From positions 129,773 to 193,772 of the forward strand of contig NZ_JAHKPH010000010.1 of the NCBI RefSeq assembly GCF_018860385.1: a DNA stretch of 64,000 nt, written 5' to 3'. The notes under the pieces were generated by a model that saw nothing but the letters and a program-made list of their open reading frames with translations, made no database searches and had not been told where the DNA came from. Each line of letters begins with the position of its first letter. Positions within the stretch are counted from its first letter, which is position 1. Origin of the DNA: Reinekea forsetii (GTDB lineage Bacteria > Pseudomonadota > Gammaproteobacteria > Pseudomonadales > Natronospirillaceae). The translations under genes were made by a program, and so were the position numbers. Below are positions 31,484 to 47,995 of the stretch, in pieces.

Positions 31484-32158
31484 TTAAATTACCCCTAATT
31501 CTAAAGCTTTAAGTACCGCGCGAGTACGATCTCTGACGCCCAGTTTCGCTAAAATATTAGAAACATGGTTCTTAATGGTGCCTTCAGATTTAAAAATGGC
31601 TCTAGATATTTCTTTGTTTGAATACCCTCCCGCCATGAGCCTTAAAATTTCAATTTCCCGAGAAGTCAGCGGGTCTTGTACGGGCTCTTTTTCAACTTTG
31701 CTTTCGCCATTACTTTGAAGCTCAGTAAAACCTTTAATAACGCGTTCAGTCACGGCCGGTTGAATTAACGTTTCGCCTCGGCTTACCGCGTCTATTGCTT
31801 CAACAAGGCTTTCAAGTGAAACATCTTTAAGTAAGAAACCTCGTGCACCGGCTCTAATACCGTTCAACACTAATTCATGATCATCAAAGGTTGTTAATAT
31901 AATTACAGGGGTTTCATTACCCTGCTCTTTAAGAGCTTTCAACGCTTCAATGCCATCCATTCGAGGCATTCTTATATCCATAAGAATGACATCGGGTGCT
32001 AGTTGTTCAACTGTTTCAATGGCTTCTTGCCCGTCGGATGCTTCGCCGACAATATTTATGTGTCCGGCCAATTTTAAAAGGGATTTTATGCCTTGTCTTA
32101 CAAGGTTCTGGTCATCTACCAGCATCACATTAATGGTTTGTTTTCCTGCGTCGCTCAT
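31484..32158 (-). CDS. NarL/LuxR-type response regulator
   Basis: A 224-residue two-domain regulator. The receiver domain (about 9-125) has the acidic pair in VDDQ, the phospho-acceptor Asp in VILMDIRMPRMDG, Thr in ILTTF and Lys in LLKDVS. A LuxR-type helix-turn-helix occupies about 150-215 (LTSREIEILRLMAGGYSNKEI). It overlaps the end of the sensor kinase gene by 4 bp (ATGA), so the pair is co-translated. The target genes are unknown. Confidence 0.93.
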   Translation of the reverse strand: MSDAGKQTINVMLVDDQNLVRQGIKSLLKLAGHINIVGEASDGQEAIETVEQLAPDVILMDIRMPRMDGIEALKALKEQGNETPVIILTTFDDHELVLNGIRAGARGFLLKDVSLESLVEAIDAVSRGETLIQPAVTERVIKGFTELQSNGESKVEKEPVQDPLTSREIEILRLMAGGYSNKEISRAIFKSEGTIKNHVSNILAKLGVRDRTRAVLKALELGVI

Positions 32159-33294
32159 AGTTCTTCCTTATATGGGATGTTGATGGTGATCGAAAAGCCA
32201 TCAGTTGAGTCAATTTGTACCTGCCCTTGAACATTTTGCACACGTTCTTGCATTCCTAACAGGCCATTTCCTTCAATGATGGTGTGTTTTGCCTTACCGT
32301 TGTCTTTGATGATCAGCCTTAAGTTTTGATCCACTTTAGACAATGAAATAGATATTTCTGTTGCTTTCGAATGTTTCAATGTATTGGTTATGGCTTCTTG
32401 AATGCTTCTGAACAGTGCTTCAGTAACAGCGACATCGGTAATTTTGATTTCCTCATCTAAATTTAATTTGATGTCGATATCAGGTACCTGGGCAATTAAT
32501 GCATCGAGAGCATCATTAAAGCTAACAGTAGACTGTTCACGCATTTGGTGAACGGTTGATCTTACATCTTGCAATAGTTCACGGGCTAAATCATAGGCTT
32601 CTGTGATGTCATTTTTAGTGTCACCTTCAGTGGTATAGGTTAAATACTGAAGTTTTAAAATTAATGCCGTCAAATGGTGCCCTAGTCCATCGTGTAAATC
32701 TCTTGATATTCTCATGCGCTCGCTGTGTTTAGAGGACTCTTCTAGCAAGGCCTGCGTGGCAATAAGTTCGCGGTTTAGAGTTGCAATTTCATCTCGGGCT
32801 TCTTGCTCTTGAATCACTCTTTGCGTCATTCTAAAAGCAAAAAGATGGAACGCAGCCGCTAACATGGTCCAAATGAGCGCATCCTGGAGATGCCAGTGCC
32901 ATTGATTAAACCAAAAGTCGACTAAGATCAGCGCTAAAACGCCCAGCAACGCTGAAAGCTGATTTAAATACATCGGAAGCAGCGCCGCCAATGCCACGCT
33001 GAGAATAACTACGACACCTGAATCACTTAATACTCGAATAAGTATAATGGCTATAAATTGAATGAAAATTGCGCTTAAGCGAATAACAATGTCGTTTTTA
33101 GGTGATACCTGAGGTCGGGTCGCAAAATAGAAGCCCACGATAAACAACAATAACCCCGCCACAATAGCAAACAGTAGAATTTGCCCAGAGAAAGTATCCG
33201 TGGGTTGGTCATTTAGCGTTAAATAGCACACCATTGCCCAAGACAAGTAGCCGATAATACCTTCAAGGTTTTGAGCAAATGAATTTTTATACAA
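32155..33294 (-). CDS. Sensor histidine kinase, DesK/NarX (HisKA_3) type
   Basis: I prefer the TTG at 33294, which has AGGAAG seven bases upstream, giving 379 residues; a TTG at 33396 would add 34 residues of unlikely sequence. About six membrane segments occupy the first ~170 residues, with little extracytoplasmic sequence, as in DesK-like sensors. The H-box is RISRDLHDGLGHHL (phospho-His after DL), followed by a HATPase_c domain with N-box SIQEAITNTLKHSKA and GNGLLGMQERV. It pairs with the overlapping response regulator. The signal is unknown. Confidence 0.9.
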   Translation of the reverse strand: MYKNSFAQNLEGIIGYLSWAMVCYLTLNDQPTDTFSGQILLFAIVAGLLLFIVGFYFATRPQVSPKNDIVIRLSAIFIQFIAIILIRVLSDSGVVVILSVALAALLPMYLNQLSALLGVLALILVDFWFNQWHWHLQDALIWTMLAAAFHLFAFRMTQRVIQEQEARDEIATLNRELIATQALLEESSKHSERMRISRDLHDGLGHHLTALILKLQYLTYTTEGDTKNDITEAYDLARELLQDVRSTVHQMREQSTVSFNDALDALIAQVPDIDIKLNLDEEIKITDVAVTEALFRSIQEAITNTLKHSKATEISISLSKVDQNLRLIIKDNGKAKHTIIEGNGLLGMQERVQNVQGQVQIDSTDGFSITINIPYKEEL

Positions 33295-33414
33295 AGTGGA
33301 GCTTCCTTTCTGAGCTAACAGTGCAATTCGGCTAGTGTATATTGAATTGTGACCCTGCGCACAGTGACTAAGGTCACGGTTGCTATTCCGATGCAAGCAT
33401 GGTGATATTAGGAA

Positions 33415-36310: not shown

Positions 36311-36802
36311 TCAATTTTTAGGTAATGCAAAAGTTACACGAACCGATACAAAACCAGGTTTGTTCTCATCATCTAACGTCAATTCTGCTTGAGTAATACC
36401 CATCGATTCTAAACCAGCTAACCACTTTACGACAGATGGGTAACGTGCGCCTTCTAGCCACACTCGCAAATTATCACCTTGAGGTTCAAAGCGTTGAATC
36501 GACAATCCATGGCGAACGGCCTGTCGGCGAATTTCAGAATTTAAAGAACTGATCGAAAATGCCGGTGTCGATTGACCATTTGCCAGAGCTTGTGGCGCAA
36601 TGGCGAGCAGCTCTTGATATGTTGTTTCTGCATTAGCGAGTGAGTTTTTGGCATTGTTATGAGCATTTACAAGAGGCATTACAATGCCAAAAATAATAAT
36701 AGCCACTAACAGAGAAACACTTAAAACAATAACTGACTTCTGATCACGCTCAGAAAGGAGCGCCCAGCGTTCAGAAAGTTTAGTTTTTACATCGGCAAAC
36801 AT
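36311..36802 (-). CDS. gspM: Type II secretion system protein M
   Basis: A 163-residue bitopic inner-membrane protein: a short cytoplasmic start (LSERWALLSERDQK), one membrane span at about 25-45, and a periplasmic ferredoxin-like domain. GspM binds GspL in the inner-membrane platform of the secretion machine. It is the last gene of the gspE-to-gspM run, 3 bp after gspL. The length is normal. Confidence 0.9.
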   Translation of the reverse strand: MFADVKTKLSERWALLSERDQKSVIVLSVSLLVAIIIFGIVMPLVNAHNNAKNSLANAETTYQELLAIAPQALANGQSTPAFSISSLNSEIRRQAVRHGLSIQRFEPQGDNLRVWLEGARYPSVVKWLAGLESMGITQAELTLDDENKPGFVSVRVTFALPKN

Positions 36803-36805
36803 GGT

Positions 36806-38053
36806 CTAACCTCCTAATACGCTTTTAAATTTAGCTCGAACCGCATCACGATCTTGGCTGGCCGAATATTCCACACTGTACCCTTTACGACTTAACTCAG
36901 TTTTAAGTGCTTCAAAGTGGTTAAATGCATCGCTTGACGCATCGCTGACCAGGGTAAAGGTTGTTTCATTGCGATCTTGGTTGTATCGCAAGTCTTCTAA
37001 CTGAAGAGTAGCGTTTGCACTACGTAAATCATTCAAAACGGTTAAGGCATTCGCATTGGGCTGTTTAGAGTCGCTAGAACCAATAGATGCGGCTTTATTA
37101 CGCATTTCACGGACCATGAGCGGTCTTTGAATTCGTTTTTGATCGCCAAAAACCTGTTTAAAGACAGCTTCACTGGCTTGCCAAGTTTGATCAGCTTGCT
37201 CTTGTAATCGCATAGTTGATATTCCGGTATAGGCAGACCAAATCACTAACGAGAATACAGCCGCAATACTCGTTGGCACCCAGAATCGAGCATGTTTATT
37301 GGACGTCCCCGGTCTAAGGTTTGCTGTCAGTAAATTATGGACCGATTTACTGGAGGATGCTGTTTCGGCCCATTGTGCAATCGAACTGTCTTCTTGAATA
37401 ACCCACTCTACTTTGTGACCGTTAGTTTCTAGCGAAGTCACTAGGTTTCTAGCGGCACCATCTGTTTGAGCGCTGTAGACCATAATAGACAAATTTTCTT
37501 CGAAGCCATTTTGACTGAGCCAATGCTCAAACCATTGTGGAAATCCACGGTAATGTGCCTGTGAAAAATTAAGCCCAGATCTTATGGAGACCTGTTCGTT
37601 GTTTACATGAATATCAACGTCATGGGTACTTTGATGTGGAAGCAAAAATTGGCCCGCGTCATAGGCTTCAAACACGTTCATATTTCGGGTTTTGAGGGTG
37701 CTTATTACCTGTAGAAAAGGCTCTTTAGCCGTTGCACAAACAGACGCTTCTCCTTGTTGTGGCTTTCCTAACATTACTAGATGCACATCTTCGATGTTTT
37801 GAGCAATAAATTCTTCTGCAGCGAAACTGAGCATTTGGCTCGACACTCGCTTTGCACCTTTTGGCAATTGTACAGGGAAAGTAGTAAACCAACCCGCTGG
37901 CAAGAATAGCCGAGTTACAACTTGGGCTAAATTTCGCTGCTGCACCTGATCTTCCAGCTCTTCAAGCGTGCCATTAAACTGAGAATTTTCTTCAGCCCAA
38001 TACCAACTTATATTTTGTGCATCTTGCCAGTAAAGGCTTAATTGTATGCTCAT
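36806..38053 (-). CDS. gspL: Type II secretion system protein L
   Basis: A 415-residue bitopic protein. The cytoplasmic actin-like domain (about 1-260) recruits the ATPase GspE; a membrane span at about 265-285 (IAAVFSLVIWSAYTGIS) precedes a periplasmic domain that pairs with GspM. It is between gspK and gspM, with gaps of 10 and 3 bp. Confidence 0.92.
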   Translation of the reverse strand: MSIQLSLYWQDAQNISWYWAEENSQFNGTLEELEDQVQQRNLAQVVTRLFLPAGWFTTFPVQLPKGAKRVSSQMLSFAAEEFIAQNIEDVHLVMLGKPQQGEASVCATAKEPFLQVISTLKTRNMNVFEAYDAGQFLLPHQSTHDVDIHVNNEQVSIRSGLNFSQAHYRGFPQWFEHWLSQNGFEENLSIMVYSAQTDGAARNLVTSLETNGHKVEWVIQEDSSIAQWAETASSSKSVHNLLTANLRPGTSNKHARFWVPTSIAAVFSLVIWSAYTGISTMRLQEQADQTWQASEAVFKQVFGDQKRIQRPLMVREMRNKAASIGSSDSKQPNANALTVLNDLRSANATLQLEDLRYNQDRNETTFTLVSDASSDAFNHFEALKTELSRKGYSVEYSASQDRDAVRAKFKSVLGG

Positions 38054-38063
38054 AAAATGCCTA

Positions 38064-39044
38064 TTATTCTACTTTTACATTGCCTTGGTTGGATGATCCG
38101 CTTTTGATCGGATCTCCTGGTGCACGATTGGCCGCTTGAGCCGACCTATTACGTGCTACCACAATTACCTGCTGATTATTTCTTGATAGCAAGCTTTGCT
38201 GAGTCAGAGTTCGATCTTCTATAGTGACTGAAGTATAAAGTTCGAACCACTGCGAAGAAACGCTCAACTCAGAAATATTAAGTGATTTATCCTGATTAAT
38301 GGTAAAGACTGGGTATTTTTTAAAATCATCAACATTTTTAAACCCAGATTCACCTCGGTCAGTCACCATCTGATTAGCGGTATCTTGATCGATAAACGTT
38401 GCTATGCTTTGCAATACTTCTATGGGTGCCGTATTCACATTTAACGCACTTTCTGGTGGCAGAGCACTGATGTAAGGGGCCAACTTATCGTACTGTTCAA
38501 CATCTATCGCATTCAGTAACCTCAACTCTGAAATGTCTGCTAGTGGGTAATACGAGGGTGCATAGGTTGGTATTTTATCGAGATAAAAATAATCTGCACC
38601 GCTGTCTTGATCGAACCACATATTTAACTCATCGGCTATTTCAGCATTCGCACCAACGAGAGAGAGTAGTCTCTTAAAGGCTATTAATGCCCCTTCCCGG
38701 TTTGCGCTTTGCATCGACATCCAGTTTAGGTTGAATCGACCTTGTAGATCATTCAACTCTGTTTCTAATATGCCCTTGGGTTCTGTTAAAGGGAATATTC
38801 CTTCAGAGACATTCCAAAGTTCATATAGGTGATCGGTTTTAGAGTTTTGTGCATCAAGGGTTAAGCCAACTTTCGCAATGGCTTCGGCGCTGTCGAGTAA
38901 TGTAGTGGCTTGCGAATAAAAAAGCGATTGCTGCGCCCGCTCAATGTTTAAGCGCTGCCCTAGTTGTAAATTGACCGCCACGATGCTGAGTAATGCAAAG
39001 ATTAGTAGTACTTGAAGTAAGGCGATGCCTCTTTGCGCTATCAT
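38064..39044 (-). CDS. gspK: Type II secretion system minor pseudopilin K
   Basis: A 326-residue pseudopilin. The prepilin cleavage site is AQRG/IALLQVLL; as is usual for GspK the Glu at position +5 is missing (Gln here). The large inserted helical domain and hairpin-helix region fit GspK. With GspI and GspJ it caps the pseudopilus. It overlaps gspJ by 4 bp. Confidence 0.93.
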   Translation of the reverse strand: MIAQRGIALLQVLLIFALLSIVAVNLQLGQRLNIERAQQSLFYSQATTLLDSAEAIAKVGLTLDAQNSKTDHLYELWNVSEGIFPLTEPKGILETELNDLQGRFNLNWMSMQSANREGALIAFKRLLSLVGANAEIADELNMWFDQDSGADYFYLDKIPTYAPSYYPLADISELRLLNAIDVEQYDKLAPYISALPPESALNVNTAPIEVLQSIATFIDQDTANQMVTDRGESGFKNVDDFKKYPVFTINQDKSLNISELSVSSQWFELYTSVTIEDRTLTQQSLLSRNNQQVIVVARNRSAQAANRAPGDPIKSGSSNQGNVKVE

Positions 39045-39751
39045 GATGCCGCTCCGCTAGATTTCTCATAAGGGCGGCTCGGTGTTGCAATAATACGTTT
39101 AAAGCGCCGATCATCGTCCAGCGTGAGCGTAACAGAAAGTGCGTGTATTACTAACGATTGTGGCTGTGTGCGGTCAAAGTTTTCTGGCAATATTGAGACA
39201 AGATTTTGTTCGCCCGTAGCCTCATCAACCAACAAAAATTCCCAATCGAGCTCTGTCACGTGCTCACTGATCACCTGGTGTTTCCACTCAAACGAACCAT
39301 CATCATCAAGGTGAACCGTGAAGCTGCGTACAAAGCAAGGTGTGTCTGTAACAGAATCTGACTCTGACTCTGCTGAGTATTCGCATAGCTCACTGCCGCG
39401 CGGTGCTAAGCGATATTGAACGCGCTGTAAGGTAGAGCGCTGATAGGTTTGATAAGGGCTCACGGCCCAACCATTTCTGGTCAATTGTAAGCCTTCGTAG
39501 GTAACTGCTAAAAAATCATTGTACTCACCGTATGGATTACGAATGGGGCGAAACGGGGCTATTTGAGAAAAATCACGTTCTAAAATTGCCATTGCCCGTG
39601 TCAATTCTAAAAAAACATCACTTTGTTGTTCAATGCTTTTTTTGGTTTCGACACTGATGCTAAACAACCGAAACGATACCACCGCAATGATCGCTGAAAT
39701 AGCTAACGCGATTAACAATTCGACTAAAGTTAACCCCTGTTGCCTTTTCAT
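39041..39751 (-). CDS. gspJ: Type II secretion system minor pseudopilin J
   Basis: A 236-residue pseudopilin with the type III signal sequence KRQQG/LTLVELLIALAISAII (cleavage after Gly6, Glu at +5). The soluble part is beta-rich, as in GspJ, which forms the pseudopilus tip with GspI and GspK. It overlaps gspI and gspK by 4 bp each, showing tight coupling. Confidence 0.92.
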   Translation of the reverse strand: MKRQQGLTLVELLIALAISAIIAVVSFRLFSISVETKKSIEQQSDVFLELTRAMAILERDFSQIAPFRPIRNPYGEYNDFLAVTYEGLQLTRNGWAVSPYQTYQRSTLQRVQYRLAPRGSELCEYSAESESDSVTDTPCFVRSFTVHLDDDGSFEWKHQVISEHVTELDWEFLLVDEATGEQNLVSILPENFDRTQPQSLVIHALSVTLTLDDDRRFKRIIATPSRPYEKSSGAAS

Positions 39752-40137
39752 TGAGTCACCTGCACATGCCCTATTACAGCATGCAATCTATCTACAGCTG
39801 ATTCGTCGTTTTCTAAATAAGCCCGAACTTCAACGCGACGTAAAAACGGACCGATAATCTCTACCTCTACGTTGAAGGTTTCTATTTCTACCGTCCATTC
39901 ATTGTTGTTTAACGTCACCTTGTCTTTACTGAGGCCCGGTTTTGGTAACACTTCAGATAACCGTAGTTCGGTCAAAGCATTTTGTGTTAGCCAACGAGCA
40001 TTTTGCTGCTCTTCTATTTGCCTCGCGGCAGCAATGCTTTGCGTGTTGGCGATTGAAATAGCCGATGCCATAACAGCAAATACGACAAGCGCTACCATGA
40101 CTTCAACTAATGTAAAACCACCGTTAACGCGCTTCAC
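39748..40137 (-). CDS. gspI: Type II secretion system minor pseudopilin I
   Basis: A 129-residue pseudopilin. The cleavage site is VNGG/FTLVEVMVALVVFAVMAS with Glu at +5. GspI nucleates the tip complex with GspJ and GspK. It overlaps gspH by 14 bp and gspJ by 4 bp. The length is normal. Confidence 0.92.
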   Translation of the reverse strand: MKRVNGGFTLVEVMVALVVFAVMASAISIANTQSIAAARQIEEQQNARWLTQNALTELRLSEVLPKPGLSKDKVTLNNNEWTVEIETFNVEVEIIGPFLRRVEVRAYLENDESAVDRLHAVIGHVQVTQ

Positions 40138-40690
40138 GATTTACCCTTGCGCGATTAAAGCCATCAGCAATTATTTTCATTTGCTCATCGCTGTAACCGT
40201 CATCATAAAAATGAATATAATAGGAAGGAAAATATTCTTCAGAAGGCGTAACAACAACGTGTGGGGTTAAAAACTTGCCTTCCGGTTCTTCTTGCAAATC
40301 TGACTCTAATTCTACCCAATCGCTGAGATCGATATCTAAAAACAACTCAATGCCTAAATCTTCTGGAATGGTAAAGGCACTCAACTGACCGTGAGCTTCC
40401 CAAACAATGTCGGGCTCGGCCTCCATCGGGTCGCCTTCTCGCCATTTCATGGCCTGCACATTAGATTCAGTAAAGTACAGACCAATGTCCTTGCCGGATA
40501 AGAGTGATTGGTCAATTGATTTTGAAAACCAATGCTGAAAGCCATAAGCTTTTTTTACGGTATCTTCGAGCGGATCTTTAGTTTGGCTGGCTAGAGAAAT
40601 CATACTCATTACCACACCCATAATGAGAATCACCACTAATACTTCGATCAGCGTGAATCCATTAATTGTTTGGCGTGGTAACTTTGTCAT
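40124..40690 (-). CDS. gspH: Type II secretion system minor pseudopilin H
   Basis: A 188-residue pseudopilin with cleavage site TING/FTLIEVLVVILIMGVV and a GspH-like soluble domain. It links the major pseudopilin fibre to the tip complex. It is 6 bp downstream of gspG. Confidence 0.92.
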   Translation of the reverse strand: MTKLPRQTINGFTLIEVLVVILIMGVVMSMISLASQTKDPLEDTVKKAYGFQHWFSKSIDQSLLSGKDIGLYFTESNVQAMKWREGDPMEAEPDIVWEAHGQLSAFTIPEDLGIELFLDIDLSDWVELESDLQEEPEGKFLTPHVVVTPSEEYFPSYYIHFYDDGYSDEQMKIIADGFNRARVNREAR

Positions 40691-40696
40691 TTGATT

Positions 40697-41110
40697 TTAT
40701 TGAGCCGCCGAACTGATATCGGCATTCACGCCTTCCCCACCTTCTGCTCCGTCGGCTCCATAAGAAATTATTTCTGGCACACTGCCATCATTGATATAGC
40801 CGTAATCGTTGCCCCAAGGATCTTTTGGCTGTTGCTTCAGGTAAGGCCCCCGCCAATTTTTAGGCTCAGGTGATCCACTTGGCTTGCTTACTAACGCTTC
40901 TAAACCTTGGTCTGTTCCTGGGTAATGTGAGTTGTGTAACCGATACATTTCTAACGCATTGCCAATGGTCTTTATATCCGTTGCGGCGGCCGTGGCACGT
41001 GCTTCGTCTCCGCGACCGGTTACATTTGGTACCACCAAACCAATGATGATCCCTAAAATAACCAATACGACCATCAGTTCAATTAGGGTAAAACCCGTTT
41101 GTTTTTTCAT
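40697..41110 (-). CDS. gspG: Type II secretion system major pseudopilin G
   Basis: A 137-residue protein from the ATG at 41110 (GGAG upstream); a GTG five codons earlier is less likely because [19 protein letters not shown] gives the normal six-residue leader. The soluble part has the GspG pattern [16 protein letters not shown] and a C-terminal Asp-containing loop that binds calcium in relatives. It polymerises into the pseudopilus that pushes cargo through the outer membrane. Confidence 0.95.
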
Positions 41111-41144
41111 TTCAATCTTCTCCACAACTAAAAACGGTGTGTGT

Positions 41145-42362
41145 TTAACCTGCCAATGTATTCATTGTTAACATAGGCAATACAATGGCTAACACAATAA
41201 TTAATACGATGACGCCCATCACTAAAATCATGAGCGGCTCAAATAAACTTAAAATACTGGATATCAGAATTTGAATTGATTTGGTTTCAGCATCGGCTGT
41301 TTTTTGCAACATGATGTCGAGCTCACCACTGGTCTCACCGCTGCCAATCATATGCAACATCATTGGTCTAAAGTAACCTGCTTCTTTTAGAGCTTGATAC
41401 AATGAGCCGCCTTCACTGACCTTAACCGCTGCCCTTGATACACGTTGTTGAATTTCCAAATTGGTCACAACTTGAGTGGCTATTTTCATGGCTTCCACCA
41501 AGGGTACGCCGCTGCTTGACAACATAGCAATGGTGCCAATAAAACGAGACGTATTAAAGCCTTTCGAGATTCGCGCTATCAACGGTAGCTTTAAATACAA
41601 TCTGTGTGTTCGAATTCTGCGCTGAGGCTTTTTATTAAACATCACTATCGCAATAATGAACAACGCGATACCAATCAATCCCTTTCCCCAGTGATTTTGG
41701 ATGGCCTCGCTCACTTGTAATAATACTTGAGTCGGCTTTGGCAGTTCGGCTCCAGAATTAACAAATACGCCCACGATTTCTGGGACTACCGTGTTTAAAA
41801 GCAAAATAACAATGCCAATGGCAATGCAGCTTAATATCCCCGGATAAATACTGGCGTTTAATACTTGAGCATTGATGGCTCTTTGCTCTTCCATATAATC
41901 TGCAAGGCGATCCATAACTTCGTCTAAATGGCCACTGTGTTCACCGGCTTGCACAGTGGCTCGGTATAATACAGGGAAAGCTCTTGGATACTCTTCTAGC
42001 GCTTTGGCTAAGCTATAACCTTCTAGCACTTTCGAACGCACACTGAGCATAATATTGCGTACTTTGATCTTTTCAGATTGCTCTGCTGCAGCACGTAAGC
42101 ACTCTTCTAACGGCATCCCAGAGCCAACCAAGGTCGACAACTGTCGGGTCACCAGTGATAAATCAGACACTGAGAGTTTAGGACCAATAAGAGTAGAAAA
42201 GCCGCCGCCTTGTTTGCGAGATTTGGTCGATAACTCTACCGATTCAGGATACCAACCTTTGTCTCTCAATTGTTGCCGCACCTGACGAGCGCTGTCGGCT
42301 TCTAGAGCGCCCTTTTTCTTTTTTCCTTGGGCATCTAAAGCTAGGTATTCATAGGCCGCCAC
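41145..42362 (-). CDS. gspF: Type II secretion system inner-membrane protein F
   Basis: A 405-residue protein with two homologous cytoplasmic helical domains (about 70-165 and 270-370) and three membrane spans (about 170-190, 222-240 and 375-400), the standard GspF layout. It is the platform protein that the ATPase GspE turns or moves to build the pseudopilus. 2 bp after gspE. Confidence 0.95.
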
Positions 42363-42364
42363 CG

Positions 42365-43834
42365 TTAATAGCTCCTATTCACTCGAAGTATTTCTTCAAT
42401 AGTGGTTAAGCCGGCCAGTACCTTCTCTTTACCATCATCCATTAATGCGGGTGTGGTTTTACGAGCATGCTTTTCAAGTTCTATATCACCAGCGTTGTCA
42501 TGTATCAGTTGGCGCATGCCTTCATCTACTTTGACCAGCTCGTAAAGCCCTAAACGGCCTTTATAGCCACTACTTTTACAGGCATTGCAGCCTTTGGGTT
42601 GAAATACATTAAGTGGCTCTGCTAGGCCAACACCTAAAAATTCACGCTCTTTAGCATCAGGCTGATATGGCTCTTTGCATTCGGGGCAAAGGGTGCGCAC
42701 GAGGCGTTGCGATACTAAGCCAATGACACTGGAAGAAAGCAAAAATGGCTCAACGCCCATGTCTTGTAATCGTGTAATGGCACCAACGGCGGAGTTTGTG
42801 TGTAGAGTACTTAATACTAGGTGCCCGGTTAAACTGGCTTGTACCGCAATTTCGGCTGTTTCTAAGTCACGTATCTCACCAATCATGACGACATCAGGGT
42901 CTTGTCGTAAAATGGCTCGTAAGCCGCGGGCAAATGTCATATCAACTTTGGTGTTAACCTGGGTTTGACCTATTCCTGGTAAGCCATATTCAATCGGGTC
43001 TTCTACGGTCATAATATTGCGCGCATGGCTATTAAGCGATTGCAATGCGGCATACAGCGATGTGGTTTTACCTGAACCTGTTGGACCCGTGACTAAAATA
43101 ATGCCATGAGGACGGGCGATCAGTTCCTGCATTAGCGTTAAATCACGATCCACCAACCCTAAATGACTTAAATCCAGTCGGCCTGCCTGCTTGTCTAACA
43201 ATCGCAGAACGACTCGCTCACCATGACTGGAAGGTATAGTCGATACTCGTAAATCTACCTCTCGACCCGCCACTCGTAATGATATTCGGCCGTCTTGAGG
43301 CAAACGTTTTTCGGCAATGTCTAATTTGGCCATTACTTTAATACGTGAAACTAATAATGACGCTAACGCACGCTTAGGTTGAACAACTTCTCTTAGCACT
43401 CCGTCTACACGGAAGCGAATAGACAGGCGTGTTTCAAATGTTTCGACATGAATATCTGAGGCATTCTCACGAACAGCTTCGGTCAAAATGGCGTTTATAA
43501 GACGAATAATGGGCGCATCATCCACTTGGTCCATTAAGTCTTCAGTTTCAGGGACAGAATCGGCTAACGAGCTTAAATCCATAGACTCACCCAAACCCTC
43601 AACCATTTGCATGGTTTCATCCGAATCGGTTTGGTAAGCCAAGTTCAATGCCTCTGAAAATGCCGCATCGTTTACTAACTCCAACGGCAATAAAGCTTGA
43701 GCTACTCGTTGCGCTTCTTGGATAGCCACTAAGTTTGCTAATTCGGTATACAACAGACGTGCGCCATCACCGTGGCGATAATCAATAATTACGCCATGGC
43801 GCTTAGCAAACGAAAAAGGTAATTGTCTTTCCAA
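42365..43834 (-). CDS. gspE: Type II secretion system ATPase E
   Basis: A 489-residue secretion ATPase. Walker A is GPTGSGKTT, the Asp box TVEDPIEYGLPG, Walker B DPDVVMIGEIRD and the His box TGHLVLSTLHTNS. The tetracysteine zinc site is CPEC...CNAC near residues 388-425. It powers pseudopilus assembly. It opens the gspE-F-G-H-I-J-K-L-M run; gspC, gspD and the prepilin peptidase are not in this window. Confidence 0.96.
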   Translation of the reverse strand: MERQLPFSFAKRHGVIIDYRHGDGARLLYTELANLVAIQEAQRVAQALLPLELVNDAAFSEALNLAYQTDSDETMQMVEGLGESMDLSSLADSVPETEDLMDQVDDAPIIRLINAILTEAVRENASDIHVETFETRLSIRFRVDGVLREVVQPKRALASLLVSRIKVMAKLDIAEKRLPQDGRISLRVAGREVDLRVSTIPSSHGERVVLRLLDKQAGRLDLSHLGLVDRDLTLMQELIARPHGIILVTGPTGSGKTTSLYAALQSLNSHARNIMTVEDPIEYGLPGIGQTQVNTKVDMTFARGLRAILRQDPDVVMIGEIRDLETAEIAVQASLTGHLVLSTLHTNSAVGAITRLQDMGVEPFLLSSSVIGLVSQRLVRTLCPECKEPYQPDAKEREFLGVGLAEPLNVFQPKGCNACKSSGYKGRLGLYELVKVDEGMRQLIHDNAGDIELEKHARKTTPALMDDGKEKVLAGLTTIEEILRVNRSY

Positions 43835-43930
43835 ATGGAGAGATCCTTCTATTTTTATTAGTTGGATGAAACGACTTTAAAGATAACCTCTAAGGTATTG
43901 ATTCTCTATTATTTTCACGTGCCCTTTACA

Positions 43931-46099
43931 TCAATAGCTGCTCCAGCGTTGCATAACACTGACTAATTCATCGTATTGGAGGGGTTTAGACAAGAAATCA
44001 TCCATACCGGCGGCTAAATATTCGCGCTCTTGTTCAGCCGATTGTTCAGAAGACATCGCAATAATGGGTATGTGGCTACCCGTTTGTGATTCAATTTGCC
44101 TTATTTCGCGTGTGGCTAACAATCCGTCTAAACGTGGCATGTAACAATCCATTAGTACCAGGGCGTAGTCATTTTCACTTACCTTTTTAATGGCTTCATG
44201 ACCGTTAACCACGGCATCTACTTCGGCACCCATCTGTTCGAGCATGGCAGACAATACACGCTGATTCAGTAAATTATCTTCTGCAATTAGTACTTTGACT
44301 TGCTTTTCGCACTGGTATTTATTTTCAGCGGTATCATCTAACACCTCTATGGCTTGCCTTAATGTGTACAGCAATTGGTCTCGGGGGACTGGTTTTTCAA
44401 TGAATATTGGGTCTACAGTCAAATTCTTAACAATGTTTCGCTGTAATTCTGATGCATATATGATCAGATGAGTATTTTCATCGAAGCGAGAAGCCAACTG
44501 GTTAACTAGCTGAATCTGAGTTAACGCTTTTTGGTCTTCAACTGAAAGGTTAACCAACACAAAATCAGTATCAATGGCATTATCGCCGTCTATTAACTTT
44601 TCTAAATCAAGCTTTTGAACCGTCATGTTCCAGCTGAGGAATTCAGCTGCTAATGCCCTTTCAGATAATGGGCTTAAATCGGATAATATGATTGAGCGCC
44701 CGGCCATATGCTTGGTTGGCCTAAAGGAACTAGCTTGCTGAGTCGTTGCTTTTATCGGTAAACGTACTTCAATGGTTTTTAAATCACCCTTGGCGCGAAT
44801 ATATATCTTGGCGCCCATCGCTTTAAACTGAGCCGTAGAAACCATGAGCGTTAATTGATCTGTAATGTCCTCATCTTCTGGCAGGATGGACATCTGGCGT
44901 TCTACCGCGGCGGATAAATCTGATTTTTCTATTTCGTTGTTCATAAAATAGAATGACAACACTAACAAATCGTCTTCATGCTCTGGGTCTAAGCCAATCT
45001 TTACGGTAATTTCGCCTTGTTCAGCCGACTCCAACGCAAAATCGAGCATTCGACGAAACGCGTTCGATAACCAAGTAGGATCGGCTTCTATGCGTTCTGG
45101 TACATCAGGGTGGTACAAATAAGACAACTCACGGCCATGTTCGTGGGCTTTGGGTCCCATATCGGCGAGCGTATGTTCTAAGGTTTTGCGTAAATTAAAA
45201 ACAATTGGATTAGGAACGCGGGTTTGGTCTCGTTGTTCAATAAAAGCTTCCAAATCACTCATTAAATCTAAAATAGAAAACCCAGATCGCCGAGCAATGG
45301 TCAGCATGCTGTTGTTGGCGCTTTCTTGGTCTTCGGAGCTGAGCATGCCTAAAACGCCTAACAGCCCACTGAGTGGTGTTTTTAAACGTAAGAGTATTTG
45401 TTGAACGAAGCGTCGATTCGATGATTTTTCGACGGTGGTTGCTTCTCTCGCCTGCTCTAATGCCGTAAGTCTCAGCTTATACTCGGTATTCATTTTCAAG
45501 AAGCTCCAAATAAGCTCTGAAATACGAGAGGCTGTCATAACCAAGTAGGCATAAAGCGCTAAAATGGCGATTCCGATTACAAAATCGTGTGGCTTTGCAC
45601 CAACAGCTAAATAAAACACCACCAAAGGCAAAAGCAAAACAGCTAAATACACTTTAACCGTGTACCCATAGAGCGAATACACAAAGGTTCCGCCCGCGGC
45701 TATTGCAGAGGTATAGAGAATGCCTAATAACAAAATTGGGTGATCAGGTTCGGTGTAAAGGCGATAAGCTAAATAACTTGACCAAATACCCGCATGTAAG
45801 ATGCCTGAAAGAATAAAGCGTTCACGCCACTTTTTAGGCCCGCGAGCATACCAGCTTTCAAACTGGGCAATCATGACAAAACGCCAAGCCGCCATAATTA
45901 TGAGCGCAAAACCAAAGAAATAAACGGTATCAGGTATGGTATAGCCCGTTTTGCCGCTTAAGTAGGCTTCTAAAATAATGAACAAGCCAAAATGAAGAAT
46001 GGCACTGGGCAGCCCTTGGCGACTTAACGTCTGATCAATCTTTTTTAAAGTGGCTCGATCTTTTTGGGCTTTATGCTTTGGGTTAAAAAATAAACTCAT
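43931..46099 (-). CDS. Degenerate hybrid histidine kinase with intact receiver domain
   Basis: A 722-residue protein: about seven membrane segments (residues 32-190), a dimerisation/H-box region (about 225-295), a HATPase-like domain (about 300-460), a degenerate middle receiver-like segment and a C-terminal receiver (about 605-720). The H-box, usually SHELRTPL, reads LLRLKTPL, so the phospho-acceptor His is Leu237. The N-box Asn (RRMLDFALESAE) and the G1 DxGxG motif are also lost. The final receiver keeps EDN, Asp651 (LMDCYMP), AMSS and Lys705 (SKPL). It probably cannot autophosphorylate and may receive phosphate from another kinase. It lies 96 bp upstream of gspE on the same strand. Confidence 0.85.
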   Translation of the reverse strand: MSLFFNPKHKAQKDRATLKKIDQTLSRQGLPSAILHFGLFIILEAYLSGKTGYTIPDTVYFFGFALIIMAAWRFVMIAQFESWYARGPKKWRERFILSGILHAGIWSSYLAYRLYTEPDHPILLLGILYTSAIAAGGTFVYSLYGYTVKVYLAVLLLPLVVFYLAVGAKPHDFVIGIAILALYAYLVMTASRISELIWSFLKMNTEYKLRLTALEQAREATTVEKSSNRRFVQQILLRLKTPLSGLLGVLGMLSSEDQESANNSMLTIARRSGFSILDLMSDLEAFIEQRDQTRVPNPIVFNLRKTLEHTLADMGPKAHEHGRELSYLYHPDVPERIEADPTWLSNAFRRMLDFALESAEQGEITVKIGLDPEHEDDLLVLSFYFMNNEIEKSDLSAAVERQMSILPEDEDITDQLTLMVSTAQFKAMGAKIYIRAKGDLKTIEVRLPIKATTQQASSFRPTKHMAGRSIILSDLSPLSERALAAEFLSWNMTVQKLDLEKLIDGDNAIDTDFVLVNLSVEDQKALTQIQLVNQLASRFDENTHLIIYASELQRNIVKNLTVDPIFIEKPVPRDQLLYTLRQAIEVLDDTAENKYQCEKQVKVLIAEDNLLNQRVLSAMLEQMGAEVDAVVNGHEAIKKVSENDYALVLMDCYMPRLDGLLATREIRQIESQTGSHIPIIAMSSEQSAEQEREYLAAGMDDFLSKPLQYDELVSVMQRWSSY

Positions 46100-46275: not shown

Positions 46276-46295
46276 AAGCCAGCATGTGCTGGCTT
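46276..46295. terminator. Rho-independent terminator of etfBA
   Basis: A 9-bp stem AAGCCAGCA/TGCTGGCTT with a 2-nt centre, followed on the minus strand by a T tract. It is 25 bases past the etfA stop codon. Confidence 0.85.
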
Positions 46296-46319: not shown

Positions 46320-47246
46320 TTAGATGCTTTGCTCAAGTTCCGGCAAGGCATCAAATAAGTCTGCGACTAAGCCGTAATCGGCCACTTGGAAGATAGGCGC
46401 TTCTTCGTCTTTATTGATCGCAACAATGACTTTACTGTCTTTCATACCAGCCAAATGTTGAATCTGACCAGAAATACCAACGGCGATGTACAATTCAGGA
46501 GCAACAATCTTACCAGTCTGCCCAACTTGCATGTCGTTAGGAACAAACCCTGCATCAACCGCTGCGCGAGATGCGCCAACGGCCGCTCCTAACTTGTCGG
46601 CAACTTTATAAAGTAGGTCAAAGTTTTCACCGTTTTGCATACCACGGCCACCCGAAATAACCACGCCTGCTGAAGTTAACTCAGGGCGGTCAGATTCGGC
46701 AAGTTCTTCACCAACAAATTCACTAACACCAAGATCAGCCACGGCTTCAACCGCCTCGATTGAAGCACTGCCGCCCTCTGCACAGGCATCAAATGCCGTG
46801 CCACGAACCGTAATTACCTTAATGGCGTTAGCCGATTGAACCGTAGCAATGGCGTTGCCAGCGTATATTGGGCGACGGAAAGTGTCAGCGCTTTCTACGG
46901 AGACAATTTCAGAGATTTGCTCAACATCTAATTTAGCCGCTACACGAGGTAAAAAGTTTTTACCCGTGGTAGTTGCTGCCGCTAAAATGTGGCTATAGTT
47001 AGCGCCTAACGCACTAACAAGCTCACCCATTGGCTCTGCTAGTTGGTGAGCGTATTGTTCTGCATCGGCCGTTAAAACTTTGGCTACGCCTGCAAGCTTA
47101 GCTGCAGCTTCTGCTGCACCACTTACATTAGAACCTGCAACCAGAACGTCTACATCACCACCAATAGCCGTAGCTGCAGTAACCACGTTTTTAGTGACAG
47201 CTGATAATGCTTCGTTGTTATGCTCTGCAATGACAAGAATACTCAT
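46320..47246 (-). CDS. etfA: Electron transfer flavoprotein, alpha subunit
   Basis: A 308-residue ETF alpha subunit. The C-terminal FAD-binding region shows [34 protein letters not shown] and [19 protein letters not shown], the usual signature. With EtfB it accepts electrons from acyl-CoA dehydrogenases. Its ATG overlaps the etfB stop by 4 bp, so equal synthesis is expected. Confidence 0.96.
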
Positions 47247-47995
47247 GACAACACCTTCGCTTCATTTTTCAATTTATCGACAAGTTCTGCTACAGAGCCA
47301 ACTTTAATGCCCGCTTCACGTTGTGCTGGCGCTTCTACTTTTAAAGTCGTTACTGAATTTTTTAGCTCTACGCCAAAATCAGCTGCCGTCTTTTTATCCA
47401 AAGGCTTACGCTTAGCCTTCATAATGTCTGGAAGTTTCACGTAACGAGGTTCGTTTAGACGTAAATCTGTGGTTACAATGGCGGGAAGTTTCAAGCCAAC
47501 AGTTTGCAAACCACCGTCGATTTCACGAGTGACGTTCACTTTGTCACCATTAATTTCAACTTTGTTTGCAAAAGTGCCCTGAGGCAAGTTGCTTAATGCT
47601 GCCAACATCTGACCTGTTTGGTTATTGTCTGTATCGATAGCCTGCTTACCAAGAATAACTAAACCTGGTTGTTCTTGCTCAACAATAGCGTTTAACAACT
47701 TAGCGACGCCTAAAGAGCTTGGGGCTTCTTCGGTCGTAATAAGAATGCCGCGATCAGCGCCAATGGCCATTGCACGACGAATTTGTTCTTCCGCTTTGGC
47801 TTCGCCTATGGAAACAACGATGATTTCTTCAGCGACGCCGGCTTCTTTTAACCGAACGGCTTCTTCTACCGCAATATCACAAAACGGGTTGATGTCCATT
47901 TTAACGTTGGCGAGATCAACCCCAGTATTATCGGGCTTGACGCGTACTTTGACGTTGTAGTCTACAACGCGCTTTACAGGAACCAGAATTTTCAT
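47243..47995 (-). CDS. etfB: Electron transfer flavoprotein, beta subunit
   Basis: A 250-residue ETF beta subunit with the N-terminal [22 protein letters not shown]-binding region ([37 protein letters not shown]) and the recognition-loop region that docks on dehydrogenases. First gene of etfBA, divergent from etfQO across 279 bp. Confidence 0.96.

Follow-up and report, generated by a model that had tools for sequence, protein, structure and literature searches.

The window analysed here is a stretch of 64,000 nucleotides from Reinekea forsetii. On its minus strand lies an ORF of 722 amino acids, which starts with ATG, contains no internal stops and encodes a histidine kinase-like protein (Table 1). 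It is followed by gspE, and the distance of 96 bp in the same direction that had been given by a reading of the letters without database searches (the sequence-only reading) agrees with the ORF coordinates. Behind gspE the run continues with genes which we take, from their sequence and order, to be gspF to gspM. Upstream of the kinase-like gene lie two genes that are presumably etfA and etfB, as judged from their sequence. The apparent start codon of gspE is a TTG (window 43832-43834), and several relatives carry an ATG at that place.

Table 1. Features of the kinase-like gene and its surroundings; positions are those of the window.
Feature	Position	Strand	Basis
gspF to gspM region, gspE gene run	36311..42362	(-)	sequence and gene order; several matched by tblastn to syntenic operon
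gspE, type II secretion ATPase	42365..43834	(-)	TIGR02533, 706.7 bits, above cut-off
96-bp gap, kinase-like gene to gspE	43835..43930	(-)	no terminator-like site found on this strand
Pseudo-hybrid histidine kinase ORF (predicted), 722 aa	43931..46099	(-)	ORF and homologues
Intact receiver, residues 599-722	43934..44305	(-)	Response_reg, alignment, model
Codon of Lys705	43985..43987	(-)	alignment
Codon of Asp651, predicted phosphorylation site	44147..44149	(-)	alignment
Degenerate first receiver (pseudo-receiver), residues 462-598, Asn517 at Asp place	44306..44716	(-)	alignment, model
ATPase-like (CA) fold without N, D and G boxes, residues 296-455	44735..45214	(-)	alignment, model
DHp (HisKA-like) helices without His, residues 206-295	45215..45484	(-)	profile, alignment
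Codon of Leu237 (replaces the phospho-accepting His)	45389..45391	(-)	alignment
Membrane sensor, residues 1-205, 5-6 spans	45485..46099	(-)	hydrophobicity, model
Terminator-like hairpin after etfA, before kinase-like gene	46276..46295	(-)	-14.9 kcal/mol, z -4.0
etfA and etfB, frequent upstream neighbours	46320..47995	(-)	ORF list

The protein begins with a membrane sensor, in which five clear hydrophobic stretches are seen by sequence and six helices in a low-confidence model, in line with the multi-span sensor proposed before. No Pfam or NCBIfam family matches residues 1-205. For the sensor region of 18 members the best Pfam E-value was 0.03 and the best NCBIfam E-value 0.00038, the latter for one member and an antiporter model. 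D22, F80, W91, R92, P158 and W198 are invariant across 18 homologues of the order.

In the kinase core of the window protein HisKA is matched by Pfam with 17 bits, below the cut-off of 26.9, and no match to HATPase_c was found. Leu237 in QILLRLKTPLSG occupies the place of the H-box His, where active homologues read HEL/IRTPMN, and is followed by Arg238, so that no His-Glu/Asp pair is present. The N-box Asn is replaced (RRMLDFALE vs SNAIKF in active homologues), the D-box place reads YFMNNEI without DxGxG, and at the G-box place DQLTLMV is found without a G-box. The protein thus has none of the marks of an active kinase, i.e., a His followed by Glu/Asp, the N-box Asn, DxGxG and the G-box. The sequence-only reading had already named Leu237 at the His place and the missing N-box Asn and DxGxG, and the comparison with active homologues confirms this and adds the G-box to the losses. 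Behind the core, Response_reg (E 1e-25) is the sole Pfam domain above cut-off. This C-terminal receiver is complete; next to Asp651 and Lys705, which had been recognized before, it keeps E607/D608 and S683. A receiver with an intact active site behind the kinase core is a trait of hybrid sensor kinases, and six of the 21 family members do not have it. The degenerate first receiver at about residues 462-598 had been absent from the earlier reading. PADLOC gave two weak matches, both in the receiver region of the window protein.

A structure model of the window protein was built from three sequences and is of low confidence (mean pLDDT 60, pTM 0.41). Searched with Foldseek, it matched full-length ShkA best (E 1e-24), followed by GacS and RetS, and the CA domain of VanS was matched with a target TM of 0.79. 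The superposition of the model on ShkA (PDB 6qrj) gave a VIA Z of 20.7 over 372 residues with an rmsd of 11.8, and because of this rmsd it shows the order of the domains and not their placement; it is dominated by the receiver and carries little information on the other domains.

Of the 22 genomes in the family, 20 encode the protein at E≤1e-45. In a further genome, G013, the gene before gspE encodes a 21st member, as the N-terminal profile confirmed. In G010 no such protein was found, neither before gspE nor by the N-terminal profile at E≤1e-3, though gspE is present. The N, D and G boxes are missing from all 20 aligned members, and a His-Glu/Asp pair occurs in none of them. G013 stands outside the alignment and is scored 0 by default in the motif tally; by eye it likewise lacks the three ATP-site boxes and the His-Glu/Asp pair. 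HisKA is still detectable at E up to 1 in all 17 members scanned (of 21).

At the H-box place a His is found in 7 of the 21 members (G004 and six g8 genomes), and in all seven the next residue is Arg; the other aligned members have Leu, Gln, Met, Asn, Gly, Thr, Ala, Ser, Glu or Arg there. The sequence-only reading had set normal H-boxes among orthologues against its own proposal. Such a His does occur in these seven members, yet Arg follows and the ATP site is gone, and normal H-boxes are present in homologues of other families, none of which has a gsp gene in the stretch examined. The active-site residues of the receiver are kept in 15 of the 21 members, if Glu in place of Asp608 in G011 and G012 is counted, and it is damaged in four: Lys is changed to Thr in G004, one residue of the acidic pair is lost in G006 and in G021, and Asp is changed to Ser and Lys to Met in G007. 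In two further members (G020, G013) it is missing altogether.

gspE was found in all 22 family genomes. The kinase-like gene lies directly before it and in the same direction in 18 genomes and in G013, that is, in 19 of 19 uncut loci, so that the conserved linkage expected by the earlier reading is borne out within the family. The gaps to gspE span 47-313 bp in the 18 genomes, counted as far as the base that aligns to residue 1 of GspE, and no gene fits between the two in any of the 19 loci. The gene of G007 is split between two contigs, one of which carries its C-terminal piece followed by gspE, and in G009 the kinase-like gene and gspE are both located at contig ends. The place before gspE is kept as well in the two members without receiver and in the three of the four damaged ones that lie on uncut loci. 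Because the motif loss is common to 21 of the 22 genomes and the gene stands at gspE in every uncut locus, the loss is not a local accident.

On the other side of the gene, etfA lies at most 1.5 kb upstream in 13 members and in G013. It is 1.5-4.4 kb away in six (G001, G008, G009, G020, G004 with 1.6 kb and G005 with 2.1 kb), and a search over 10 kb did not reveal it in G006. Between etfA and the kinase-like gene of G020 lies an ORF of the opposite strand. Terminator-like hairpins were detected in 6 of 13 gaps between etfA and the kinase-like gene, two of these being from the same species, and in none of the 18 gaps that separate the kinase-like gene from gspE. The latter gaps tend to be shorter, and the comparison does not control for length. 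This difference in hairpins favours one unit of the kinase-like gene and the gsp genes, and judged from these sites they are probably co-transcribed. The terminator scan gave 6 sites against 2.9 expected. The promoter scan, with 6 sites against 6.1 expected, was uninformative.

The substitution pattern of the gene was compared with that of gspE in four pairs of genomes. The window species and G003 differ by 29 synonymous and 3 non-synonymous changes (dN/dS 0.028); two g8 pairs gave 0.029 and 0.028 and a g6 pair 0.136. For gspE the values of the same four pairs are 0.033, 0.011, 0.027 and 0.075. Selection on the dead kinase-like protein is therefore purifying, with dN/dS of 0.03 in three pairs and 0.14 in the fourth. 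In the three distant pairs synonymous sites are near saturation (dS above 1), which leaves all ratios of these pairs rough. For the DHp helices they gave 0.009, 0.027 and 0.026. No part has a lower value than these helices in the first and third pair, and in the second the sensor and the CA-like part are lower. In the closest pair the CA-like part shows 1 synonymous and 2 non-synonymous changes, which are too few to judge and give no evidence of constraint. As far as can be read from the genes, the motif loss is more than chance, being common to the 21 members found, the complete ones with intact ORFs, and accompanied by low dN/dS. The matches to a kinase fold, the motif loss and the dN/dS mark the window protein as a pseudo-histidine kinase whose inactivity is predicted.

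Beyond the family, the N-terminal profile finds the protein at E≤1e-6 in 91 of 390 genomes of the order. This set is a sample of a larger group and at most 8 candidates per genome were scored, which makes absences across the order uncertain. Outside the family 54 matches with E below 1e-20 were scored, and those at 8.5e-16 to 1e-6 were left out. All kinase boxes are present in 30 of the 54 (f43 17/17, f28 8/13, f16 2/2, f21 2/2 and f3 1/1). The N-box Asn is lost in 16 of 17 members of f15, in 5 of 13 of f28 and in the one member of f25. The f11 member is cut by a contig end and its D- and G-box are scored 0 by default. A quick tree of 75 proteins, which carries a long-branch warning inside the window family, places every family represented by more than one row, six in all, on one side of a branch. 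By parsimony the N-box requires at least 5 changes and the His at least 8. If the ancestor was active and nothing was regained, at least three losses follow (f1, f15 and part of f28), or four with f25, whose member sits on a long branch of unsure placement. Two f15 homologues, L107 (3914-6100 (-)) and L109, are ORFs of 729 amino acids; the scan of L107 gave no Pfam match at E≤0.01, and kinase decay has apparently run to its end there. In the class as a whole, 31 of 369 genomes have a match to the sensor part at E≤1e-8, partly before other output domains. Weaker relatives of the sensor in the class stand before plain HisKA/HATPase_c kinases (L165, L166, L167, L172) and before a GGDEF domain (L168).

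gspE itself is above cut-off in 295 of the 390 genomes of the order. Set against the 91 genomes with a homologue, at least 204 have gspE and no homologue at E≤1e-6. gspE is therefore useless as a predictor of the kinase-like protein, and these genomes, like G010, also rule against an obligatory component of type II secretion.

A second link to secretion was found in genus g24 of f15. In nine loci of this genus a GspL-like gene lies upstream of the dead homologue, and eight of them also have a GspM-like gene; the GspM name comes from tblastn with the window gspM at three loci tested, the GspL name from sequence and place alone. A longer stretch was available for L146, L147 and L148. There etfBA is followed after about 3 kb by gspE to gspM, and after a further 0.8-1.2 kb by the homologue. 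By this gene order the homologue follows the gsp operon in g24 and precedes it in the window family. etfBA is also found upstream of the homologue in five further f15 members (L099, L103, L107, L109, L112) and in the f11 member, and no gsp genes were found in the examined stretches of these six. In f28 and f43 the active homologues stand among other genes. In L094 and L106 (f15) a small membrane-protein gene, which we take to be DUF2788-like, lies just upstream of the homologue. Both linkages would also be explained if the gsp operon had twice entered a stable locus near etfBA, and two cases are too few to decide.

The kinase cores of RetS and GacS/BarA are among the nearest solved structures to the window protein, but their sensors are unlike its own, and RetS retains the His. 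BarA is also the top NCBIfam match, with 161.9 bits far under the cut-off of 890; at this score, and since the window protein ends after the receiver without an Hpt, identity with GacS/BarA was rejected. ShkA of Caulobacter is a soluble protein and shows DHp, CA, pseudo-receiver and receiver in the same order, whereas the window protein lacks the catalytic residues and has a membrane sensor. DivL, also from Caulobacter, is like the window protein kinase-like without kinase function, but has PAS sensors; it carries Tyr at the His place, lacks a receiver and, to our knowledge, has no link to secretion.

ShkA is reported to be an active kinase that is turned on by c-di-GMP (PMC7010744). Control of this type was rejected for the window protein, in which the linker between the two receivers (VLDDTAEN) shows no conserved DDR by eye and the core motifs are absent. 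DivL is described as having no kinase or phosphatase activity, with a core that has come to sense a phosphorylated regulator (PMC4211667), and the title of PDB 7n0e states that the DHp of GacS is bound by RetS. ChrS of Corynebacterium glutamicum is described as a pseudokinase version of a sensor kinase with an effect in the cell (PMC9491836); it belongs to another kinase system (heme tolerance), and its likeness to the window protein is drawn from this description. Among the literature matches listed, as far as titles and the starts of abstracts tell, no paper deals with the window protein or with such a gene before gspE.

What the sequence and its relatives show is a protein that has lost the kinase motifs, has retained DHp-like, ATPase-like and two receiver-like domains, is kept by purifying selection and is adjacent to gspE. 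Since the kinase parts are lost and the gene is yet kept by selection before the type II genes, the product is probably a docking or switch protein and not an enzyme. The explanation we prefer, although we put it slightly short of an even chance, is that a membrane hybrid histidine kinase has lost its His and ATP site and has been kept as a non-catalytic signalling part, which likely tunes type II secretion. The membrane part would sense a signal and shift the dimer, and the dead core and the receivers would dock partner two-component proteins or the secretion machinery, with no phosphate relayed from ATP. Where the receiver is intact, a separate Hpt or kinase may phosphorylate it in trans, which would provide a second input. 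As first gene of the presumed gsp unit it would be expressed along with the secretion ATPase, and the protein would most likely tune that system. By analogy, such a role, acting on or with type II secretion, is probably comparable in principle to that of DivL or RetS. Shared ancestry of a stable locus could be another source of the conserved order at gspE.

The strongest of the alternatives, though an unlikely one, is the membrane-tethered phosphate acceptor of the sequence-only reading, in which the protein serves mainly as a sink or switch whose receiver takes up phosphate from other kinases or from Hpt proteins. It may hold in the window species, whose receiver is intact, as it is in most of the family, and whose genome has ten Hpt matches above cut-off as possible donors. 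As an account of the whole family it fails, as four receivers are damaged and two are gone, and the place before gspE persists in most of these members. Wider than the docking or switch role itself is the proposal that a widespread hybrid kinase was repeatedly made non-catalytic and that in at least two lineages the dead form was coupled to type II secretion, where it would directly gate the GspE motor or its expression by docking and not by phosphotransfer from ATP; we regard this as rather unlikely.

Still less likely is an accessory of secretion without signalling, i.e., a membrane part that aids GspE at the inner membrane and uses the receiver-like domains as binding surfaces. The unbroken adjacency to gspE, the place behind the operon in genus g24 of f15 and a receiver that is dispensable in two members all agree with it. 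However, homologues of other families, some of them active kinases, have no gsp genes nearby, and the protein is missing from the many gspE-bearing genomes of the order counted above. An unusual catalysis, e.g., as phosphatase for a partner regulator or through phosphorylation in trans of the His of some relatives, we consider improbable. The His is correctly placed in seven members, and the phosphatase activity of HisKA is reported not to require the His (PMC12632262), but the Arg after the His in all seven and the absent N, D and G boxes speak against it, as does the window protein itself, which has no His. That the gene is a relic riding along in a stable gene order is very improbable, for the varying degree of motif and receiver loss, the equally conserved neighbour etfBA and the g6 pair, in which the ratio exceeds that of gspE, are outweighed by long intact ORFs and by the other three pairs with their low ratios.

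According to PMC12632262, 722 of 76,471 HisKA domains (0.9%) have no His. Such kinases are rare, and a role is known for few of them. The present protein, which is passed on within bacterial families, is found in stages from the full kinase to a remnant without Pfam match after several losses, and where this was measured, in the window family, the dead form is under selection. With these staged losses and this selection, the question of which purpose a sensor kinase has besides kinase activity becomes approachable. If the gsp linkage is functional, type II secretion would gain a dedicated sensory protein.

Other two-component genes were seen in the same genome. A 2254-aa open frame (G000:C21:141043-145602), presumably ChpA-like, has seven Hpt-like matches, five of them above cut-off. 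At window 31484-33396 the ORF list shows an apparently ordinary pair of a response regulator with a LuxR-type end and a sensor kinase.
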